A program made the translations under genes and the position numbers. A stretch of DNA of 64,000 bases from Segatella copri (lineage in GTDB: Bacteria; Bacteroidota; Bacteroidia; Bacteroidales; Bacteroidaceae): the NCBI RefSeq assembly GCF_015074785.1, contig NZ_CP042464.1, forward strand, positions 2,915,001 through 2,979,000, read 5' to 3'. Positions within the stretch are counted from its first letter, which is position 1. Every line of letters starts with the position of its first letter. Of this stretch, positions 5,877 to 25,767 are shown one piece after another. The notes beneath the pieces were generated by a model that did no database searches, had not been told where the DNA came from, and saw only the letters and a list, made by a program, of their open reading frames with translations.

Positions 5877-6722
5877 ATGAAAAAGAATTTCGATTTAAAT
5901 AGATTAGGAATGGTTATCCGTTGGGATGTATTAAACAACTGGACCTATAATTTGGGAATCATTGCAGGACTCGCTATCTGTTTTTCAATTGCAAACATCA
6001 TCCGGCTTTACAGAATTAGTGGCTTTATTGCAGCATCCCATGAACTAGATGCCATGACCGACAGTTATAAGGAATCCGCATATATGTTCTTTGGATTCAT
6101 TTCTTTTATGGTCATTTACGTATTGGCATCTTGCATCTTCAGAAACATGAAGACCAAGTTACAGCGCGAAAGTTTCCTGATGCTTCCTGCCACTAACCTG
6201 GAAAAATATGTGGCTCGATTTCTGGTTGTTACCGTTGGTGGTCTTGTGACTTTGCTAGGAGCCTTGGTCATTTCAGATATTATCCAGCTCATCTTTAGCT
6301 TTTTCATCACTCCAGGCTTCCATATCAGCCTTACATGGCCAGTACTCAGCCACACCATTTTTGCCCTTTCACCAATAGACAATTCTTGGCAAACAATTCT
6401 GGCAGTCTACTCCTTCCTGATATTTGCCCATTCCTTCGCAACCCTGGGAGGAGCCTTCTACCGTAAGTTTCCTGTGCTTCTGACAGCATGTACGGGATTA
6501 GCACTTTGTCTGATTTTGGGTTATATTATCAACGAACTGGGTGAAGCCGGATGGCTTGATTTCATAGGAACCTTGCACATCGAAGAGTGTTCTTCTGCTC
6601 AATATTGTACTGTATTCACCTCGTCTGCAGTATTTCTTGCTTTGGCTGCCTTCAACTATTGGGCATCCTACAAGCTCTTCACCCGTATGCAGGTTATCTG
6701 CAACAAGTGGATCAACATCTAA
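5877..6722 (+). CDS. ABC transporter permease (uncharacterised, six-TM type)
   Basis: 281 aa. Hydrophobic segments at about residues 24-44, 70-92, 112-136, 177-197, 204-223 and 246-264 suggest a polytopic inner-membrane protein. There is no recognisable sequence motif. The call rests on its position between the ABC ATPase and the GntR-type regulator, and on the ABC-2-like topology with a long loop between the first two TM segments. Less AT-biased than the glycan genes and in keeping with its neighbours. Confidence 0.68.
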   Translation: MKKNFDLNRLGMVIRWDVLNNWTYNLGIIAGLAICFSIANIIRLYRISGFIAASHELDAMTDSYKESAYMFFGFISFMVIYVLASCIFRNMKTKLQRESFLMLPATNLEKYVARFLVVTVGGLVTLLGALVISDIIQLIFSFFITPGFHISLTWPVLSHTIFALSPIDNSWQTILAVYSFLIFAHSFATLGGAFYRKFPVLLTACTGLALCLILGYIINELGEAGWLDFIGTLHIEECSSAQYCTVFTSSAVFLALAAFNYWASYKLFTRMQVICNKWINI

Positions 6723-6741
6723 GAATTAAAATTTGAAGATT

Positions 6742-7113
6742 ATGAATTTCAGTAACGATAAAGCAATATACGTACAGATAGCCGAGCGATTGAGCGATGA
6801 GATTCTGGCGGGCAAGTACAAGGAAGACGAACGAATACCGAGCGTCAGGGAATACGCCGTGCTGCTGGAGGTAAATGCCAACACAACCGTGAAGGCATAC
6901 GACCTGCTTGCCAACGATGAGATCATCTACAACAAGCGAGGCCTGGGCTACTTTGTTTCCGCTGGAGCCAAGAAGCAGATTAAGAAAACCCGCAAAAAGG
7001 AGTTTATGAAAGAAAGACTCCCGGAACTCGCTCGACAAATGCAGCTTCTCGACATCTCCATCGATGAAGTGAAGGAAGAGTTGGAGAAGAATCTCAAAAA
7101 GATAAAGATATGA
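6742..7113 (+). CDS. GntR-family (YtrA-type) transcriptional regulator
   Basis: 123 aa from the ATG at 6742; an upstream in-frame TTG at 6733 is a less likely start. The N-terminal winged helix-turn-helix runs from about residue 8 to 72 (AIYVQIAERLSDEIL, RIPSVREYA, NTTVKAYDLL, KRGLGYFV). The effector domain is short and helical, with many basic and acidic residues (KKTRKKEFMKERL, EVKEELEKNLKKIK). This size and layout are typical of YtrA-type regulators of ABC transporters. It probably represses the promoter at 4966-4997. The stop codon is followed by a 160-bp gap before the next operon. Confidence 0.88.
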   Translation: MNFSNDKAIYVQIAERLSDEILAGKYKEDERIPSVREYAVLLEVNANTTVKAYDLLANDEIIYNKRGLGYFVSAGAKKQIKKTRKKEFMKERLPELARQMQLLDISIDEVKEELEKNLKKIKI

Positions 7114-7206
7114 TGACACTATTCATCCTCAAATATATATTTATAGCTTCTGTCTTTGCCTTATATATAATAAGGTGTATGTAATAACGTTTTTAAAAAA
7201 GAGTTA

Positions 7207-7235
7207 CGCTTGCAACTTTCAGAAAGTTGCAAGCG
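7207..7235. promoter_or_regulatory. 29-bp perfect inverted repeat upstream of the MacB-type operon
   Basis: Arms CGCTTGCAACTTTC (7207-7220) and GAAAGTTGCAAGCG (7222-7235) are exact complements around a single central A. No T-run follows on the plus strand, so it is a poor terminator for the regulator gene. It lies 40 bp before the LolD-like gene and could be an operator. An AT-rich element (7159-7177) lies just upstream. Confidence 0.6.
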
Positions 7236-7274
7236 TCTAATGGTTTAAATTGATATCCATAAAACGAAAGTAAT

Positions 7275-7991
7275 ATGTCATTAATTCATCTAAAAGACGT
7301 CAACAAGACCTACCAGGGTGCTCAGCCACTCCATGTGCTGAAGGGCATCGACCTCGACATCGAACGTGGCGAGTTCGTCAGCATCATGGGTGCTTCCGGC
7401 TCGGGAAAATCCACCTTATTAAATATACTGGGTATTCTCGACAACTACGATACGGGCGAATACCGACTCAACGATGTGCTCATCAAAGACCTCTCGGAAA
7501 CCCGTGCTGCCGAATACCGCAACAAGATGATCGGCTTCATCTTCCAGTCGTTCAACCTCATCTCGTTCAAGACGGCGGTGGAAAACGTAGAGCTTCCACT
7601 CTTCTACCAGGGCGTGAGCCGCAAGAAGCGCCACGAACTGGCGATGGAATATCTAGAAAAACTGGGCTTGAAGCAATGGGCCAACCATTATCCTAACGAG
7701 ATGTCGGGAGGACAGAAGCAGCGTGTAGCCATCGCCCGTGCCCTCATCACCAAACCGGAAATCATCCTAGCCGATGAGCCTACCGGAGCCCTCGACTCCA
7801 AAACGAGCGTGGAAGTGATGGACCTGTTGAAGGAACTGCACCAGAAAGAGGGAATGACCATCGTGGTGGTAACCCACGAAAGCGGTGTTGCCAACGAGAC
7901 CGATAAGGTTATCCATATCAAGGACGGACTCATCGGAAGCATCGAAGACAACAGAGACCATCATCTCGTATCGAAAGACTACGTGAAGTAA
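7275..7991 (+). CDS. ABC transporter ATP-binding protein, LolD/MacB type
   Basis: 238 aa. ATPase of a type VII (MacB-like) ABC system that works with the two FtsX-type permeases downstream. Walker A GASGSGKST at 39-47, Q-loop Gln 91 (IFQSFNL), signature SGGQ at 144-147, Walker B ILADEPTGALDS at 164-175, His 201. These systems couple cytoplasmic ATP hydrolysis to movement of a periplasmic substrate across the outer membrane. First of four genes in one direction; no sharp promoter match is visible, but the 29-bp palindrome lies just upstream. Confidence 0.92.
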   Translation: MSLIHLKDVNKTYQGAQPLHVLKGIDLDIERGEFVSIMGASGSGKSTLLNILGILDNYDTGEYRLNDVLIKDLSETRAAEYRNKMIGFIFQSFNLISFKTAVENVELPLFYQGVSRKKRHELAMEYLEKLGLKQWANHYPNEMSGGQKQRVAIARALITKPEIILADEPTGALDSKTSVEVMDLLKELHQKEGMTIVVVTHESGVANETDKVIHIKDGLIGSIEDNRDHHLVSKDYVK

Positions 7992-13491: not shown

Positions 13492-14757
13492 TCAGATTCT
13501 TACAAGCAGATAGGCCTGACCCTTCTTGGTATGTTTCATCTTGCACCCCAGGAGTTTGAGCGACTGGCCTATGCGAATCTTGGTACTCAGATTACTGATC
13601 AGCATCGGAAATCTTTCGTGCAGAACCTCGAAAACATCCGAACAGATGAGCCATTCGCCCGTTTCATTATCCTCAGGAACACGGAAACAGCTCTTCAGCA
13701 TCGATTCAAAATCATCTACCTTGAAGAAAGGAAGATTGCACTTCTGGATGCGGTCCACCTCGGCATTGGTAAACCAGTAAGGCGTCTTCTTATGGCAAAG
13801 CTCATACATAACTTGTGCATAGAGCTGGTCATAAATGATGGGTGAACCGTTGTCGATATATTCACCTGCCGGAATGTGCAGACAGACGAAGCGGCGGCTA
13901 CCCGTAGGGTCGCAGAGCGGATGCTCATCATTGGTAGTTGCCAGGAAGGAAGCGTAACGCGGACGGTCATCCTGACACTTGCCGAAGATAGGGCGCCCGT
14001 TCACCTTCACCTTCGAAAGCATCTGCTTCAGCTTACCCTGCTGCGATGGTCCCATATTCGCAAACTCATCTATGTTGACATAGAGATTATGAGTGAGCGC
14101 CATCTCGGAGTCAAACTTATTGGCAAAGTTGATGTGGTCGAGGAAATACTGTCGCAGATGATCCGGCAGCAGGCGATAGGCAAAGGTACTCTTGCCGCAA
14201 CCCTGCTTGCCGATAAGCACAGGAGTGGTTTCGTTGCCATGAAACATATCCATCTGCAACCAGTGGGCGACAGCTGAACGGAGCCAGGTGGCGCACCATC
14301 CCAACTGTTCACTTGTAAGCCCCGGAATCCTGCCAAAGAGTTCAGCCACATGATTCTTACCATCCCATTCCGGCAGGTTTTCGAGATATTCCCTGATAGG
14401 GTCAAACTCCGGAACCTCTTCAGAACGTACGAACTCCTCAATATCCTGTCGGGGCGACTTCTTGCCTCCCACACCCAACCGCTTGGCGTGACGGACGATA
14501 GAATTGAAAGCCTCCGGAGTCAGCACCTTCCAGGTTGAGTCAGAAGATTCCTCCTCTTCCCCACCGGTTTCCGGTTCCTCTTCTACGGGCTCCTCGGCTT
14601 CGTCCTCATTCTTTGAGAGAGTGAAATACTCGGTTTTACCACTTAGCACATTTCTACGGAAGAGATAATACTCATCGAGAAAACTCTCAACAAGAGAGAG
14701 TGCTGAAATTTCGTTTGTCATCTTATCTGATGACGATAAAGCTGTAACTTTGTTCAT
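13492..14757 (-). CDS. VapE/VirE-family P-loop ATPase
   Basis: 421 aa. Residues 1-75 are low-complexity and acidic (EEPVEEEPETGGEEEESS). A helical region follows (WDGKNHVAELFGRIPG). The ATPase domain has Walker A GKQGCGKST at about 183-191, Walker B NIDEF at 228-232, sensor-1 ATTND at 273-277 and a GSRRF arginine motif at 286-290. The C-terminal ~70 residues look like the small DNA-binding-type tail found in Bacteroidales relatives. VapE proteins are helicase-like ATPases often found in phage satellites and genomic islands, sometimes with a primase domain; none is fused here. The gene is enclosed by inverted iteron arrays A and B. Role in replication of a small element is inferred. Confidence 0.87.
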   Translation of the reverse strand: MNKVTALSSSDKMTNEISALSLVESFLDEYYLFRRNVLSGKTEYFTLSKNEDEAEEPVEEEPETGGEEEESSDSTWKVLTPEAFNSIVRHAKRLGVGGKKSPRQDIEEFVRSEEVPEFDPIREYLENLPEWDGKNHVAELFGRIPGLTSEQLGWCATWLRSAVAHWLQMDMFHGNETTPVLIGKQGCGKSTFAYRLLPDHLRQYFLDHINFANKFDSEMALTHNLYVNIDEFANMGPSQQGKLKQMLSKVKVNGRPIFGKCQDDRPRYASFLATTNDEHPLCDPTGSRRFVCLHIPAGEYIDNGSPIIYDQLYAQVMYELCHKKTPYWFTNAEVDRIQKCNLPFFKVDDFESMLKSCFRVPEDNETGEWLICSDVFEVLHERFPMLISNLSTKIRIGQSLKLLGCKMKHTKKGQAYLLVRI

Positions 14758-16665: not shown

Positions 16666-16689
16666 CATCCGTAATCAAGCAAAAAAACA

Positions 16690-16851
16690 ATGGAAAAGGC
16701 ATTCGTATATGGTATGTCGGTTGCCGGAAACAACTTCATCGACCGCATCAAGAAAGCCCTCATCGACAAAGAATTGATCACCCTGGAAAAGGACGGCATC
16801 TTCATTGCCGACTGCGTGTTCGAGCTTTGGTTTAAGAAGGAAATGATGTAA
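16690..16851 (+). pseudogene. AAA ATPase remnant with an in-frame internal deletion
   Basis: A 53-codon open frame. Its start MEKAFVYGMSVAGNNFIDR matches the N-terminus of the Bacteroidales archaeal-type AAA ATPases, which continue with a P-loop. Instead it runs straight into KKALIDKELITLEKDG and ADCVFELWFKKEM, which look like the C-terminal winged-helix end of the same family. The whole ATPase core (about 300 residues) is missing. Its promoter and 5' hairpin are intact, so it may still be transcribed. Family membership is from memory of the conserved ends. Confidence 0.65.
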
Positions 16852-17262
16852 AATAGTACAGAATATAATCCCACATGGCACCCAAAGGGTAGTAGCCTTG
16901 AAATTGGTAAACGTATTCTGGTCAATGTTGATAGGGAGAACGGTATAAGTATATACGTTGTTCAAATTGTTGCAATTGTTGAAAGCCATATCACCGATAC
17001 GCTCCAATGTGCTAGGAACTCTTACTTCCTGTAGTTTACTACAACCATCGAAAGTGCTCTCTGCGATGGTGGTTAAGCCTGGGAGACTGATACTCTCAAG
17101 ATTTGAGCAAGACTGGAATGTATGATTACCAATTGTTCTCAATGATGGAGGGAACTGAATAGACTTCAGATTAAAGCAAGACTGAAAACAGATTCCAATA
17201 CTGTTTTTTGGAGTCTGCTTTTCCGAAATGGTTAAGTATATCTTATTTATTGTTTCATAGAT
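16852..17262 (-). pseudogene. Fragment of a BspA-type leucine-rich-repeat surface protein
   Basis: On the minus strand the open frame encodes LRR_5-type repeats: SIGICFQSC...LKSIQFPPSLRTIG, then NHTFQSCSNLESISLPG, STFDGCSKLQEVRVPSTLE and MAFNNCNNLNNVYTYTVLP. It has no start codon (an in-frame stop lies at 17263-17265). After ATTLWVP, near 16870, it runs into sequence antisense to the AAA remnant, so both ends are lost. BspA-like proteins are cell-surface adhesins in oral and gut Bacteroidales. The remaining gap to 17289 shows nothing more. Confidence 0.72.
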
Positions 17263-17289: not shown

Positions 17290-18147
17290 CTATTTATGGC
17301 TTATGGACAATATATACCAGCATGAAGTGGTGAAGAAATTTCTGATATACTTCATCTTCCAGACCCAATGTGGCAAGAGTCGTGGGGTAAGGTGGAACTT
17401 CTGCTTGTAATGAGGATTGATGAACCAAAGTTTTTGATCTGTTACCGAGAAGCCACATTGATGTATGAGTCTTTCAAACAACTCTATACTTGTTCGGCAT
17501 TCTTTTATGCTCATAAGCTCATTCATAGTTCCTTTCTTTTCATTGCATGTTTTTAGCAACAACCGGTATAAAGGGTTTGGCAGCAAGTGAATGAATGGCA
17601 GATGTGAGCAAAGTTTGCTTCTGCAAATCTGTTGATGTCCTCCAAAAGGCATTTGCCATGCGGGGAATCCGACAAACAGCACGCCTTTTGTTTTCATAAA
17701 CTTTCTTAGGTGTGCAAGAAATGGCTCTTTTGTCGGAACGTGTTCTATCACATCATGTAATAGTATTACGTCATATTTATCCTCTTCATTACATGGAACA
17801 GGATATTGCATGAAATCACAGCATACAAATGTAGCATGATTGCTGATTTCGGAAAAGTATGCTTTGGCATCTTTAATTCTGCATTCGGCAATATCTATAC
17901 CTGTCACTTTGCAGCCCAACTGTGCAAAGGGAACTAAGTTTCCTCCTTCACCACAGCCTACCTCCAAGATTCTACTCTTTGGTGTCAGTTCCGTAAAATC
18001 TGACAAGTAGCTGATGTAAAACTCCTTAGATGTTATCTCCAAGTCACGGAAATACATCTTTCTGTCTGTATGTCTTTTTTGCATGTATCTTATTTTTTGA
18101 CTTTTCTGTATATATAGATACAGATCATTCATAAAGACTGCATGCAA
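17290..18147 (-). CDS. Class I SAM-dependent methyltransferase
   Basis: 285 aa. Motif I ILEVGCGEGGN is near residues 60-70, the acidic motif II VTGIDIAECRIKDAK near 80-94, motif III CCDFMQYP and motif IV YDVILLHDVIEHVP near 123-136. The tail (about 150-285) is rich in aromatic and basic residues. Substrate unknown; small molecules or O-antigen-type sugars are possible. Another in-frame Met at residue 22 could be the start. It begins 12 bp after the sigma/barrel fusion gene and is probably cotranscribed with it. Confidence 0.85.
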   Translation of the reverse strand: MHAVFMNDLYLYIQKSQKIRYMQKRHTDRKMYFRDLEITSKEFYISYLSDFTELTPKSRILEVGCGEGGNLVPFAQLGCKVTGIDIAECRIKDAKAYFSEISNHATFVCCDFMQYPVPCNEEDKYDVILLHDVIEHVPTKEPFLAHLRKFMKTKGVLFVGFPAWQMPFGGHQQICRSKLCSHLPFIHLLPNPLYRLLLKTCNEKKGTMNELMSIKECRTSIELFERLIHQCGFSVTDQKLWFINPHYKQKFHLTPRLLPHWVWKMKYIRNFFTTSCWYILSISHK

Positions 18148-18159
18148 AATGATACTTTC

Positions 18160-19851
18160 TTACCAAGAGAGCCTAATACCGAAAGGCACAGTCAATGTAA
18201 ATGGACGTTCTGTCCAAGTATTCTTGACTTCGCTTCCATTCGGAAGGTACCAATTCAGCGTTGGCTCAACAAACAATGTCAACTTTGGTGCAAATTGATA
18301 TTGTATTCCGATATTAGTGTTTACAGTCCACTGTATAGAAGGTGTTGTCTTCCAATCCGTTGTATAGCCAGACTTTCCTCCTACTACATAGTCTGCATAT
18401 GTCTTTCCAGACAATGGTATCTGAATGCTTGCTCCTGCAGAACCGTAAGCCGACAGTTTCTTGTACGCCATGAATTGGTACGAGAGCTTGACAGGGATAC
18501 CGATGTAATGCAACTTTTGTTCCTTATCAACACGGTAATTGCCAGTACCCAAAGTAAAATATGACTTCAAGTAAGAGTATTGGAGTCCTGTTTCTAAACT
18601 CCAATGCTTTCCTATGCTCTTGTTCACAGCCAATCCTAATATTATAGGTTTGTCATGATGTTCTACCTCTTCAATTTTGCCCTTGTTATTATCGGCAATA
18701 TCCATCATTGCAACATTTTCCGCCGTTGGGGCAGTTGGTGTTAAGCGATGTAGATATTTAGAATACTCTTCCCATGTAGTAAAAATCTTTTTTGAAGGTT
18801 GTTCACTCGTAATATCATCACCGCTACTTGTTATAATCTTACAAACATTTTGCGCAAGAGTAGTACCCAAAGAACCAGCTGCGAGCAATTGCCATTTACT
18901 TTTCTTGTGCGTCTTTGTATCATCCGCAATCCATCTTTCCTCGTTTGGAATAGGTGTATATACAGTATCTTTTGTGATGATACTATCTCGCTTGTTATCA
19001 GCCCAAATATGTTGGTTATCCTGCAAAGAATCGGATATTTCGACTATTACATTTTGACTTGCCTTAATCGAATCGCCAACAGTTATTACAGTGTTCTTTC
19101 CCTGTTGAACACTTCGATAATTAGAACACAAAATAGCGTTTTGTATTCTAATAACAGAAACATTAGGCTTCTTTTGTATAGGTGTAATGCCTTCATTAGG
19201 TTTTCGAGTTCGAACTATATTTACATCATTTTCAGAAACGAGTTTCTTCTTTGCTGTAAAATACCTATATACAGGGATGACTATCAACGCCAATACGATG
19301 ATAAGCATAGCTCTTGGGGACAATATGTTTCGCAACATTGCCTTTGCCCTTGATAATTGCGAGGAAGAACTATGTGAAGCAATATTAAGTAATTCGCTGA
19401 TTTCTTGATGAGACAAGCCATCCAAAACAGACATGTTGAATATTTTCTTATACCCTTCAGGCAAACTGTCTATTGCTGCCATAATTTCCTCATACGGAAT
19501 TGATTGCTTGGAAGTGTTGCCATCTTCCAATACGGAACTAAATTCATCCTCTATATCAGACAAGGAAATGAAATCGTATCTCTTACCTTTCTCCTGATAT
19601 TTCAATACAAGGTTAGTAGTGATACTTGTAAGCCATTGACTAAACCTATGAGTATTCTTCAAGTCTTTCAATGAAACAAACGCAAGTATAAAAGCATCTT
19701 GGACAAGGTCGTCAACGACAGCCTTGTCCTCTCTAAGAATATTGATGCATATCCCTTTCATCTTAGGATAATACATTTGGTATAATGTGCTGAAAGCGTC
19801 AGCGTCACCTTGTTTTGCTTTTTCTACTAATGTTGTTATATTTGAAGCCAT
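18160..19851 (-). CDS. ECF sigma factor fused to a TM helix and outer-membrane beta-barrel
   Basis: 563 aa in one unbroken frame. Residues ~10-90 are sigma region 2 (DDLVQDAFILAFVSLKDL, then FSQWLTSITTNLVLKY). Residues ~125-178 are region 4 with a helix-turn-helix (LPEGYKKIF, LSHQEISELLNIASH, SQLSRAKAML). A single hydrophobic helix follows at ~181-198 (AMLIIVLALIVIPVYRYF). Residues ~200-400 form a low-complexity linker with a second weak hydrophobic stretch (LLAAGSLGTTLA). Residues ~405-563 look like a PorT/OmpA-like beta-barrel ending in the aromatic-terminal strand FGIRLSW. In Bacteroidetes an ECF sigma factor and a TM/barrel protein are usually separate neighbours. A single chain implies the sigma domain is tethered to the membrane. 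Methyltransferase gene follows. Confidence 0.85.
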   Translation of the reverse strand: MASNITTLVEKAKQGDADAFSTLYQMYYPKMKGICINILREDKAVVDDLVQDAFILAFVSLKDLKNTHRFSQWLTSITTNLVLKYQEKGKRYDFISLSDIEDEFSSVLEDGNTSKQSIPYEEIMAAIDSLPEGYKKIFNMSVLDGLSHQEISELLNIASHSSSSQLSRAKAMLRNILSPRAMLIIVLALIVIPVYRYFTAKKKLVSENDVNIVRTRKPNEGITPIQKKPNVSVIRIQNAILCSNYRSVQQGKNTVITVGDSIKASQNVIVEISDSLQDNQHIWADNKRDSIITKDTVYTPIPNEERWIADDTKTHKKSKWQLLAAGSLGTTLAQNVCKIITSSGDDITSEQPSKKIFTTWEEYSKYLHRLTPTAPTAENVAMMDIADNNKGKIEEVEHHDKPIILGLAVNKSIGKHWSLETGLQYSYLKSYFTLGTGNYRVDKEQKLHYIGIPVKLSYQFMAYKKLSAYGSAGASIQIPLSGKTYADYVVGGKSGYTTDWKTTPSIQWTVNTNIGIQYQFAPKLTLFVEPTLNWYLPNGSEVKNTWTERPFTLTVPFGIRLSW

Positions 19852-19946
19852 GAGCGGATTGTTTCGTACTATCTATTTTGATATAGATACATCAAAGGCT
19901 TGATGACTGCACAAAGTTTAGTTAAAGAATATAAATATATATATGA

Positions 19947-24864: not shown

Positions 24865-25767
24865 CTAATTAGAAGAATTTTCCCAAGGATTTTTCCACAT
24901 TTTCTGCTGTGGCCCCACTTGAGTATGTGCAACTGATGGTGTTTGATTACCGATACTCATATGCGGTCTTTCGTCGTTATAAAACGCAATAATCCTGGTC
25001 AGTTCCTTCTTACATACTTTACGAGTAGGAATTGTCATTCTATAAAGCCATTCTGTTTTTAAAATGCCGTTTGCACGTTCTGCTATAGCATTCTCCAAAG
25101 GATCTCCTGTTTGAGTCATACTTATTTGTGAGCCATGACTTTTTAGGATAGATACATAATTCTGACTGCAATACTGGCTTCCTCTGTCAGAGTGATGAAT
25201 GAGTCCTTTTGCAGTTTCTTCATCAATGCTTTTATATGCCATTTTAAGCGCTTCTAATGGATATACTGTTTCTAATGTTGGACCAACAGCCCATCCAACG
25301 ATTTTATGGGAATACAGGTCTGTTATAAGCGAGAGATAGCACACACCTTCATTGGTTTCAACATAGGTGATGTCACTTGCCCAAATCTGGTTCGGATGGG
25401 TAGGAACTACTCCCTTAATCAGGTTTGGGTATTTGCGATAATTATGGTCGGAATCTGTTGTCTTATAGCGCCTACGGCGCTTTATACGTACCATGAGTCC
25501 ATGCTTACGCAGCATCTCAATAAATGCGTCACGACCAGGGAAGCAGCCTGTATCCTCAAACATCTGTTTCAATATGGCATGCAACTTTGCAGCTCCTAAG
25601 CCAGGATTCGACTTACGATACTCACGTGCCTTTTCAATGATGATAGACTCAATGGCCTCTTCAGCAAAGCCGTCAGAGACATTGCGCTTATTATATGCTT
25701 GCCGGGTGAAACCAAACAGCCCGCATAGAGTGCCTAAACCTTGGCTCTGGCACTCTGTGCGGAGCAA
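24865..25767 (-). CDS. IS3-family transposase, orfB (DDE integrase core)
   Basis: 300 aa as drawn, with a weak start codon. It is really the downstream part of an OrfAB fusion made by -1 frameshifting. An HTH_21-type segment (about 45-95) is followed by the rve integrase core. Catalytic residues are Asp 132 (WASDITYV), Asp 194 (HHSDRGSQY) and Glu 230 (NAIAERANG), giving the DX35E spacing. The frame is intact, so the element could be active. Confidence 0.92.
   Translation of the reverse strand: MLRTECQSQGLGTLCGLFGFTRQAYNKRNVSDGFAEEAIESIIIEKAREYRKSNPGLGAAKLHAILKQMFEDTGCFPGRDAFIEMLRKHGLMVRIKRRRRYKTTDSDHNYRKYPNLIKGVVPTHPNQIWASDITYVETNEGVCYLSLITDLYSHKIVGWAVGPTLETVYPLEALKMAYKSIDEETAKGLIHHSDRGSQYCSQNYVSILKSHGSQISMTQTGDPLENAIAERANGILKTEWLYRMTIPTRKVCKKELTRIIAFYNDERPHMSIGNQTPSVAHTQVGPQQKMWKNPWENSSN

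Follow-up and report, generated by a model that had tools for sequence, protein, structure and literature searches.

The window analysed here, a stretch of 64,000 nucleotides from Segatella copri, contains a gene in which an ECF sigma factor appears to be joined, in a single chain, to a transmembrane (TM) helix and an outer-membrane barrel. This raises the question of whether such a protein is real and, if it is, how its sigma factor could be held inactive and which genes it might transcribe.

Results

The fused gene and its product

The fused gene, which is of the Dma3 type and encodes 563 amino acids, lies on the minus strand at positions 18160 to 19851. Its frame starts with ATG and runs for 563 codons with no internal stop, as an earlier reading of the letters alone (the sequence-only reading), which named no strand, had claimed; the plus-strand reading of the same interval contains many stops. 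The ECF sigma factor part, residues 1-178 (19318 to 19851, minus strand, as are the parts that follow), was assigned by Pfam and Foldseek, with region 2 at about residues 2-91 and region 4 at about 120-176. Sigma70_r2 (23-91), Sigma70_r4_2 (121-173) and Sigma70_ECF (3-173) all scored above their Pfam cut-offs, and the regions 2 and 4 by which an ECF factor is recognised occur with no region-3 model among the seven Pfam families matched. Directly after region 4 comes the TM helix, residues 179-204 (19240 to 19317), on the evidence of hydropathy (maximum 2.49, residues 176-194) and of the structural model. It is followed by a periplasmic tether, residues 205-320 (18892 to 19239), predicted from pLDDT to be mostly disordered, and the chain ends in a C-terminal outer-membrane barrel, residues 394-563 (18160 to 18672 with the stop codon), which is predicted from Pfam, model strands and Foldseek. 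Within the barrel OMP_b-brl_2 matched at residues 404-527 with 30.9 bits against a cut-off of 27, and OMP_b-brl fell slightly below its own cut-off (27.5 against 28.7).

The AlphaFold model, built on a 66-row alignment (mean pLDDT 74.1, pTM 0.46), places sigma helices at residues 2-87 and 120-176 and the TM helix at 179-204, with the region-4 helix stopping two residues ahead of the TM helix. Values of pLDDT are below 50 across residues 201-316. Barrel strands extend from about 394 to 562 and the final residue is W563. Foldseek matched the N-terminal part of the model to the ECF sigma chains SigW, AlgU and SigE, and the C-terminal part to the small barrels OmpA (TMt 0.58) and Legionella porin III (TMt 0.55). 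The profile search and structure prediction that the sequence-only reading had proposed as a check predicted both sigma regions 2 and 4 and a C-terminal barrel, and its single-chain arrangement is borne out. The fusion is real: one chain comprises an ECF sigma factor, a TM helix, a disordered tether and a C-terminal barrel.

Distribution and conservation

The 120 homologues listed, from 1512 with E <= 0.001, are 562-605 amino acids long, share 91-97% identity with the protein and cover 98-100% of it, and one homologue cluster represents 7409 member sequences, which argues against a frameshift artefact. Among named records Leyella stercorea DSM 18206 (L031) is the closest, at 93% identity to the window protein. 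In the nearest, Prevotella-like genus a single match with at least 500 aligned residues occurs in at least 28 of 100 genomes, one of which (G063) has a TGA inside the fused frame, and 104 of 298 genomes of the family match the fused protein at E <= 1e-25. When three candidates were scored per genome in 394 genomes across the phylum, only G104 and G728, both of the same order, joined the two halves in one frame among the matches listed; G102 has both halves in two frames. The fused form is, on these comparisons of sequence, conserved in Bacteroidales.

Whole-frame dN/dS (NG86) was 0.29 against L031 and 0.17 against L001 (63% identity; linker 0.29), and the comparison with L064 was saturated and gave no whole-frame value. 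The ratio stayed below 0.5 in the sigma, linker and barrel parts each in the two comparisons that gave all three, the linker being the least conserved long part of the protein.

Some near-identical relatives carry interrupted forms of the gene. L048 (11-520) matches about the first 136 residues of the window protein and its frame then ends, and in G156 (contig C10) the two parts occupy separate frames with TAA stops. A fused sigma/barrel gene adjoining a radical-SAM gene was also found in L032, a metagenome-assembled genome labelled Roseburia (Bacillota); the contig is likely to come from Bacteroidota and to have been misbinned.

Split and fused forms

The arrangement of sigma factor and TM/barrel protein as neighbouring genes, which the sequence-only reading regarded as normal for Bacteroidetes, is frequent in the genus nearest to the window: split pairs are numerous there, in which the sigma gene has 178-211 codons and the TM/barrel gene comes next, often overlapping it by 4 nt. 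The split partners have 42-64 residues ahead of the TM helix in 32 of 32 cases (the search for the helix being restricted to the first 120 residues), and a rough anti-sigma motif matched in 18 of 24. This stretch is missing from the fused chains. In 89 of 90 proteins the sigma profile ends close to where their TM helix begins, with offsets between -6 and +5 residues; in the sole exception (L046) the script chose a stretch inside the sigma domain, and the helix starts in this range in 98 of 98 when the search is confined to -8 to +60 residues around the profile end. The TM comparison of 98 fused with 32 split proteins left out L010, L021, L084, L196, L024 and L181, as well as the weak split partners L099 and L107 (TM stretch from residue 54 and 58, respectively). 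A proline within this stretch was commoner in fused (76/98) than in split (7/32) proteins, in counts from which relatedness was not removed.

In an unrooted tree of 110 sigma domains, a branch with support 100/100 sets the 68 fused ones apart; the lone row labelled split on their side, L091, has its frame truncated where the contig ends. The tree left out 37 loci together with L188, L196, L197 and rows below 100 bits or 140 residues. The simplest reading of this tree suggests one fusion event with loss of the anti-sigma stretch. Later, independent fusions had been suspected from open-frame lengths in G061, G045, G058 and G273, which are actually split pairs. G337 (L182) is fused and falls inside the single clade.

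Paired promoter-like elements

Two ECF-promoter-like elements, found by pattern and by matrix, flank the fused gene on its own strand. Element 1 (TGCAGTC, 15 nt, TATCTA; 19884 to 19911) lies upstream of the fused gene and element 2 (18115 to 18142) lies 17 nt past its stop, ahead of a methyltransferase gene. These two matches in the window compare with 0.03 expected, and none of 100 shuffles gave two. Among the upstream regions of fused genes GCAGT was found in 74 of 86, mostly 50-66 nt before the start; in the anchored set it is preceded by T in 70 and trailed by C in 67. A (T/G)(A/T)CT(A/T)TA-like box lies about 15 nt beyond it. The best-scoring dyad, an A-tract with CAGT, occurred in 48 of the 86 regions versus 9-11 in five shuffles. 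The first dyad listing had been taken to mean that the A-tract and CAGTC were the -35 and -10 boxes; this was replaced by TGCAGTC as the putative -35 and the downstream box as the putative -10, because the split relatives L101, L102, L105 and L107 show, by eye, CAAC-plus-T-tract elements like an ECF -35. The spacing between the two boxes resembles that of ECF promoters.

A matrix was trained on the upstream copies only, with the cut at the 99th percentile of 1352 control stretches. Before counting, L040, L053, L079, L060 and L072 were dropped as near copies or broken, and others such as L010/L049 were kept. The post-stop score, which is independent of the training, exceeded the cut in 72 of 87 loci, and 68 of those 72 copies begin 2-54 nt past the stop. 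The upstream score, which is not independent of it, did so in 73 of 87, and both elements were present in 68 of 87. Of sixteen further fused loci (L182-L197), 10 exceeded the cut of 6.35 in the 250 nt ahead of the gene, a rate below that of the training set; L187, L188, L189, L193, L194 and L195 had none in that interval. No upstream region of 24 split sigma genes (L158-L181) exceeded 6.35, the best reaching 2.9.

Of the 14 loci without a strong score upstream, L003 and L076 have the site within a gene whose predicted start is over-long, and in nine it lies 0.6-1.4 kb upstream (L104 scoring only 11.2); no upstream copy was found in L029, L059 and L082. Among the 15 without one downstream, L035, L078 and L086 carry a copy 0.6-0.9 kb further on, and none was found within 1.5 kb in L009, L082 and L087. 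Adjoining copies are lacking in seven loci (L022, L027, L057, L061, L067, L069, L070) that have one 0.6-1.4 kb upstream, and in six of them an upstream gene that is lipoprotein-like by eye abuts the fused gene. It may be that these loci are the same module with the gene order swapped.

The element is also associated with the fused gene at the level of whole genomes. A second pattern, derived from some of the genomes that carry the fused gene, matched in 21 of 28 genomes with that gene versus 1 of 22 without it (50 genomes; Fisher p 3.6e-7), 10 of these 22 being 50-86% complete. It flanked a fused gene at 29 of its 37 sites, and a reversed control gave 5 sites. An earlier, looser pattern had found 17 sites in five genomes, 9 flanking the fused gene and 8 elsewhere, and its reversed control also gave 8. 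Seven of the 8 second-pattern sites that do not flank a fused gene were inspected for a wider regulon. The site in L153 lies ahead of a lipoprotein-like gene upstream of another fused gene on the same contig, the site in L146 precedes a 339-residue frame of no clear kind, and at those in L130, L143, L156, L135 and L148 no frame that begins within 250 nt is longer than 77 residues. From co-occurrence and spacing we infer a link between the element and the fused sigma factor. With both elements beside the gene in 68 of 87 loci, and a fused gene next to 29 of 37 sites, the data support a private regulon that would consist of the fused gene itself and one adjacent output gene.

In one split pair, L106 (4974-6772), both the promoter-like element of the sigma gene and the region-4 helix are similar. 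This pair may resemble the ancestor of the fused form, and the element may predate the fusion.

Genes adjacent to the fused gene

The gene behind element 2 encodes a SAM-dependent methyltransferase (Pfam Methyltransf_25 and others above cut-off for ORF 17290-18147). It had been placed 12 bp downstream of the fused gene, and a frame does begin there, at TTG 18147. The promoter-like element lies between the stop and a later ATG, at 18084, and the start was therefore moved to that codon, which opens a conserved MQ(K/R/Q/N)RH start; the likely gene is 17290 to 18084 on the minus strand, 75 bp past the fused stop. In the window and in L001, L031, L037, L041, L008 and L006, GCAGT precedes this ATG by 57 or 59 nt, close to its distance from the fused gene of the window (59 nt); in L089 it precedes the ATG by 48 nt. 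It is absent ahead of the ATG in L082 and L104, and L064 gave no row. The suggestion that the methyltransferase belongs to the output is supported by this second promoter-like copy in front of it, and from its sequence context we regard it as the probable output gene of the fused sigma factor.

Elsewhere the output position is held by other genes. A same-strand gene follows within 400 nt in 75 of 91 fused loci: 28 belong to a lipoprotein-like group (two tested, no Pfam match), 21 to a radical-SAM/SPASM group (one tested by Pfam) and 9 to a methyltransferase group (that of L064 and that of the window tested by Pfam), and the remainder are varied and include a serpin, a CotH protein, an S41 peptidase and a phosphate-binding-like protein. 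In L104 a gene upstream of the fused one has the methyltransferase start. In L073, where the serpin gene (6630-7907) is downstream of the fused sigma/barrel gene, the element copy that separates the two is weaker (score 12.1).

Around the locus in the window, inspection by eye showed an IS3-type transposase frame (24865-25767), a VapE-like frame (13492-14757) and a leucine-rich-repeat fragment (16675-17142). No separate sigma gene, such as the ECF21 gene described beside Dma1 and Dma2, was seen beside the fused gene by eye among ORFs of at least 80 amino acids between 14000 and 25000.

Discussion

Comparison among genomes brings out a fused architecture, the missing anti-sigma stretch, a single clade and paired elements. 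We consider it rather probable that the protein is a Dma3-type trans-envelope sigma factor that drives itself and the adjacent gene from two matching promoters. The sigma domain would be cytoplasmic, anchored by the TM helix directly adjoining region 4; the long disordered tether would cross the periplasm, and the barrel, here a prediction and for the Dma family a published feature, would sit in the outer membrane. Joining the DNA-recognition helix of region 4 to the membrane could keep the sigma factor off RNA polymerase or DNA, so that tethering would be the off-switch in place of an anti-sigma domain. A change at the outer membrane might be passed along the tether and lead to proteolytic cleavage within the TM helix or close to it, which would release the sigma factor. 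The elements would be its -35 and -10 boxes: from its own promoter the freed factor would transcribe the fused gene, giving positive feedback, and from the second promoter the adjacent output gene, here the methyltransferase, which may act on the envelope.

That separate sigma and Dma genes were merged by a frameshift in sequencing or assembly is extremely improbable. A single indel could join the many split pairs that overlap by 4 nt, but such an error is contradicted by the 120 full-length homologues, the one clade of 68 and dN/dS of 0.17-0.29, and the stretch ahead of the TM helix is missing from the fused chains, not present in another frame. The full-length protein might instead act as a sigma factor while membrane-bound, the barrel altering its shape or position with no need for cleavage. 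The nearly gap-free joint of region 4 and TM helix in 89 of 90 members looks as if the full chain mattered; a region-4 helix two residues from the TM helix in the model should, however, hinder binding of polymerase and DNA, and we find this reading unlikely.

The element pair could also serve a different sigma factor or regulator, one in control of the fused gene and the gene beside it, with the fused sigma factor acting on other targets. The similar element of the split pair L106 is in its favour, as are L029, L059, L082 and 6 of 16 further fused loci without an element nearby upstream. Set against these are the occurrence of the pattern in 21 of 28 genomes that carry the fused gene versus 1 of 22 that lack it, and a spacing like that of ECF promoters, and we judge this alternative improbable. 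Returning to the self-driven, tethered sigma factor, we propose tentatively a more general picture, one that we would not yet put at even chances: a one-protein trans-envelope switch without an anti-sigma domain, in which the membrane joint of region 4 is the lock, and which drives from two promoters a private regulon made up of its own gene and a single exchangeable output gene, the module having been kept across Bacteroidales since a single fusion. The missing anti-sigma stretch raises the question of how tethering alone could keep a sigma factor inactive, the paired elements point to likely targets, and the module is frequent in the Prevotella-like genus.

Relation to known systems

The sequence-only reading implied that the fused architecture was new, but it is already known in kind. 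An excerpt of PMC13088901 describes Dma3 of Bacteroides thetaiotaomicron as a member of the dual-membrane-spanning anti-sigma family with no adjoining sigma gene and a sigma domain at its own N-terminus, gives its locus as BT_2778-2779 and states that very little else is known of it. In an excerpt of a transcriptome study BT_2778 is listed among sigma-70 family factors, and its entry in the iron table is about 2.3 (PMC10434189). Among the 20 best-ranked of 135 literature matches the word Dma3 occurred in PMC13088901 only; a search by architecture wording gave nothing on point in titles and beginnings of abstracts, and one joining Prevotella, Dma terms and the element letters found no paper.

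The window protein, from a Leyella/Prevotella-like source, has the N-terminal sigma domain, TM helix, long disordered tether and predicted C-terminal barrel of the Dma3 type. By sequence it is a Dma3-type member related to the copy in B. faecis (L036), with which it shares 42% identity over residues 5-563, end to end, and an 11-row clade with support 100/97; L036 carries both elements. B. faecis is a near relative of B. thetaiotaomicron. The N-terminal sigma domain is the same in Dma3, a likeness drawn from the excerpted description, the link by sequence being made through B. faecis. The neighbours differ, those in B. faecis being a radical-SAM/SPASM protein and a Gfo/Idh-like oxidoreductase in place of the methyltransferase. 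What the comparisons made here add to Dma3 as described in that excerpt is the missing stretch ahead of the TM helix, the one fused clade and the flanking pair of elements.

Das1/Dma1, Das2/Dma2 and M0N98_03760-61 of P. vulgatus likewise combine an ECF sigma factor with TM helix, tether and outer-membrane barrel, and their Dma partners are described, in the same excerpt, as having an N-terminal anti-sigma binding domain (PMC13088901), the stretch absent from the fused form. For P. vulgatus, an excerpt of PMC9308784 reports that the sigma gene rose 33-fold under BcpT and that activation of this split relative accompanies longer O-antigen and partial toxin protection, and by analogy a role in envelope stress is plausible for the fused system. 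These relatives consist of two genes, whereas the window system is one chain. Cell-surface signalling of the FecI/FecR/FecA type also relays an outer-membrane event to an ECF sigma factor, through three proteins that include a TonB-dependent receptor; the relay is shared, and the window system differs in being one chain with a small barrel.
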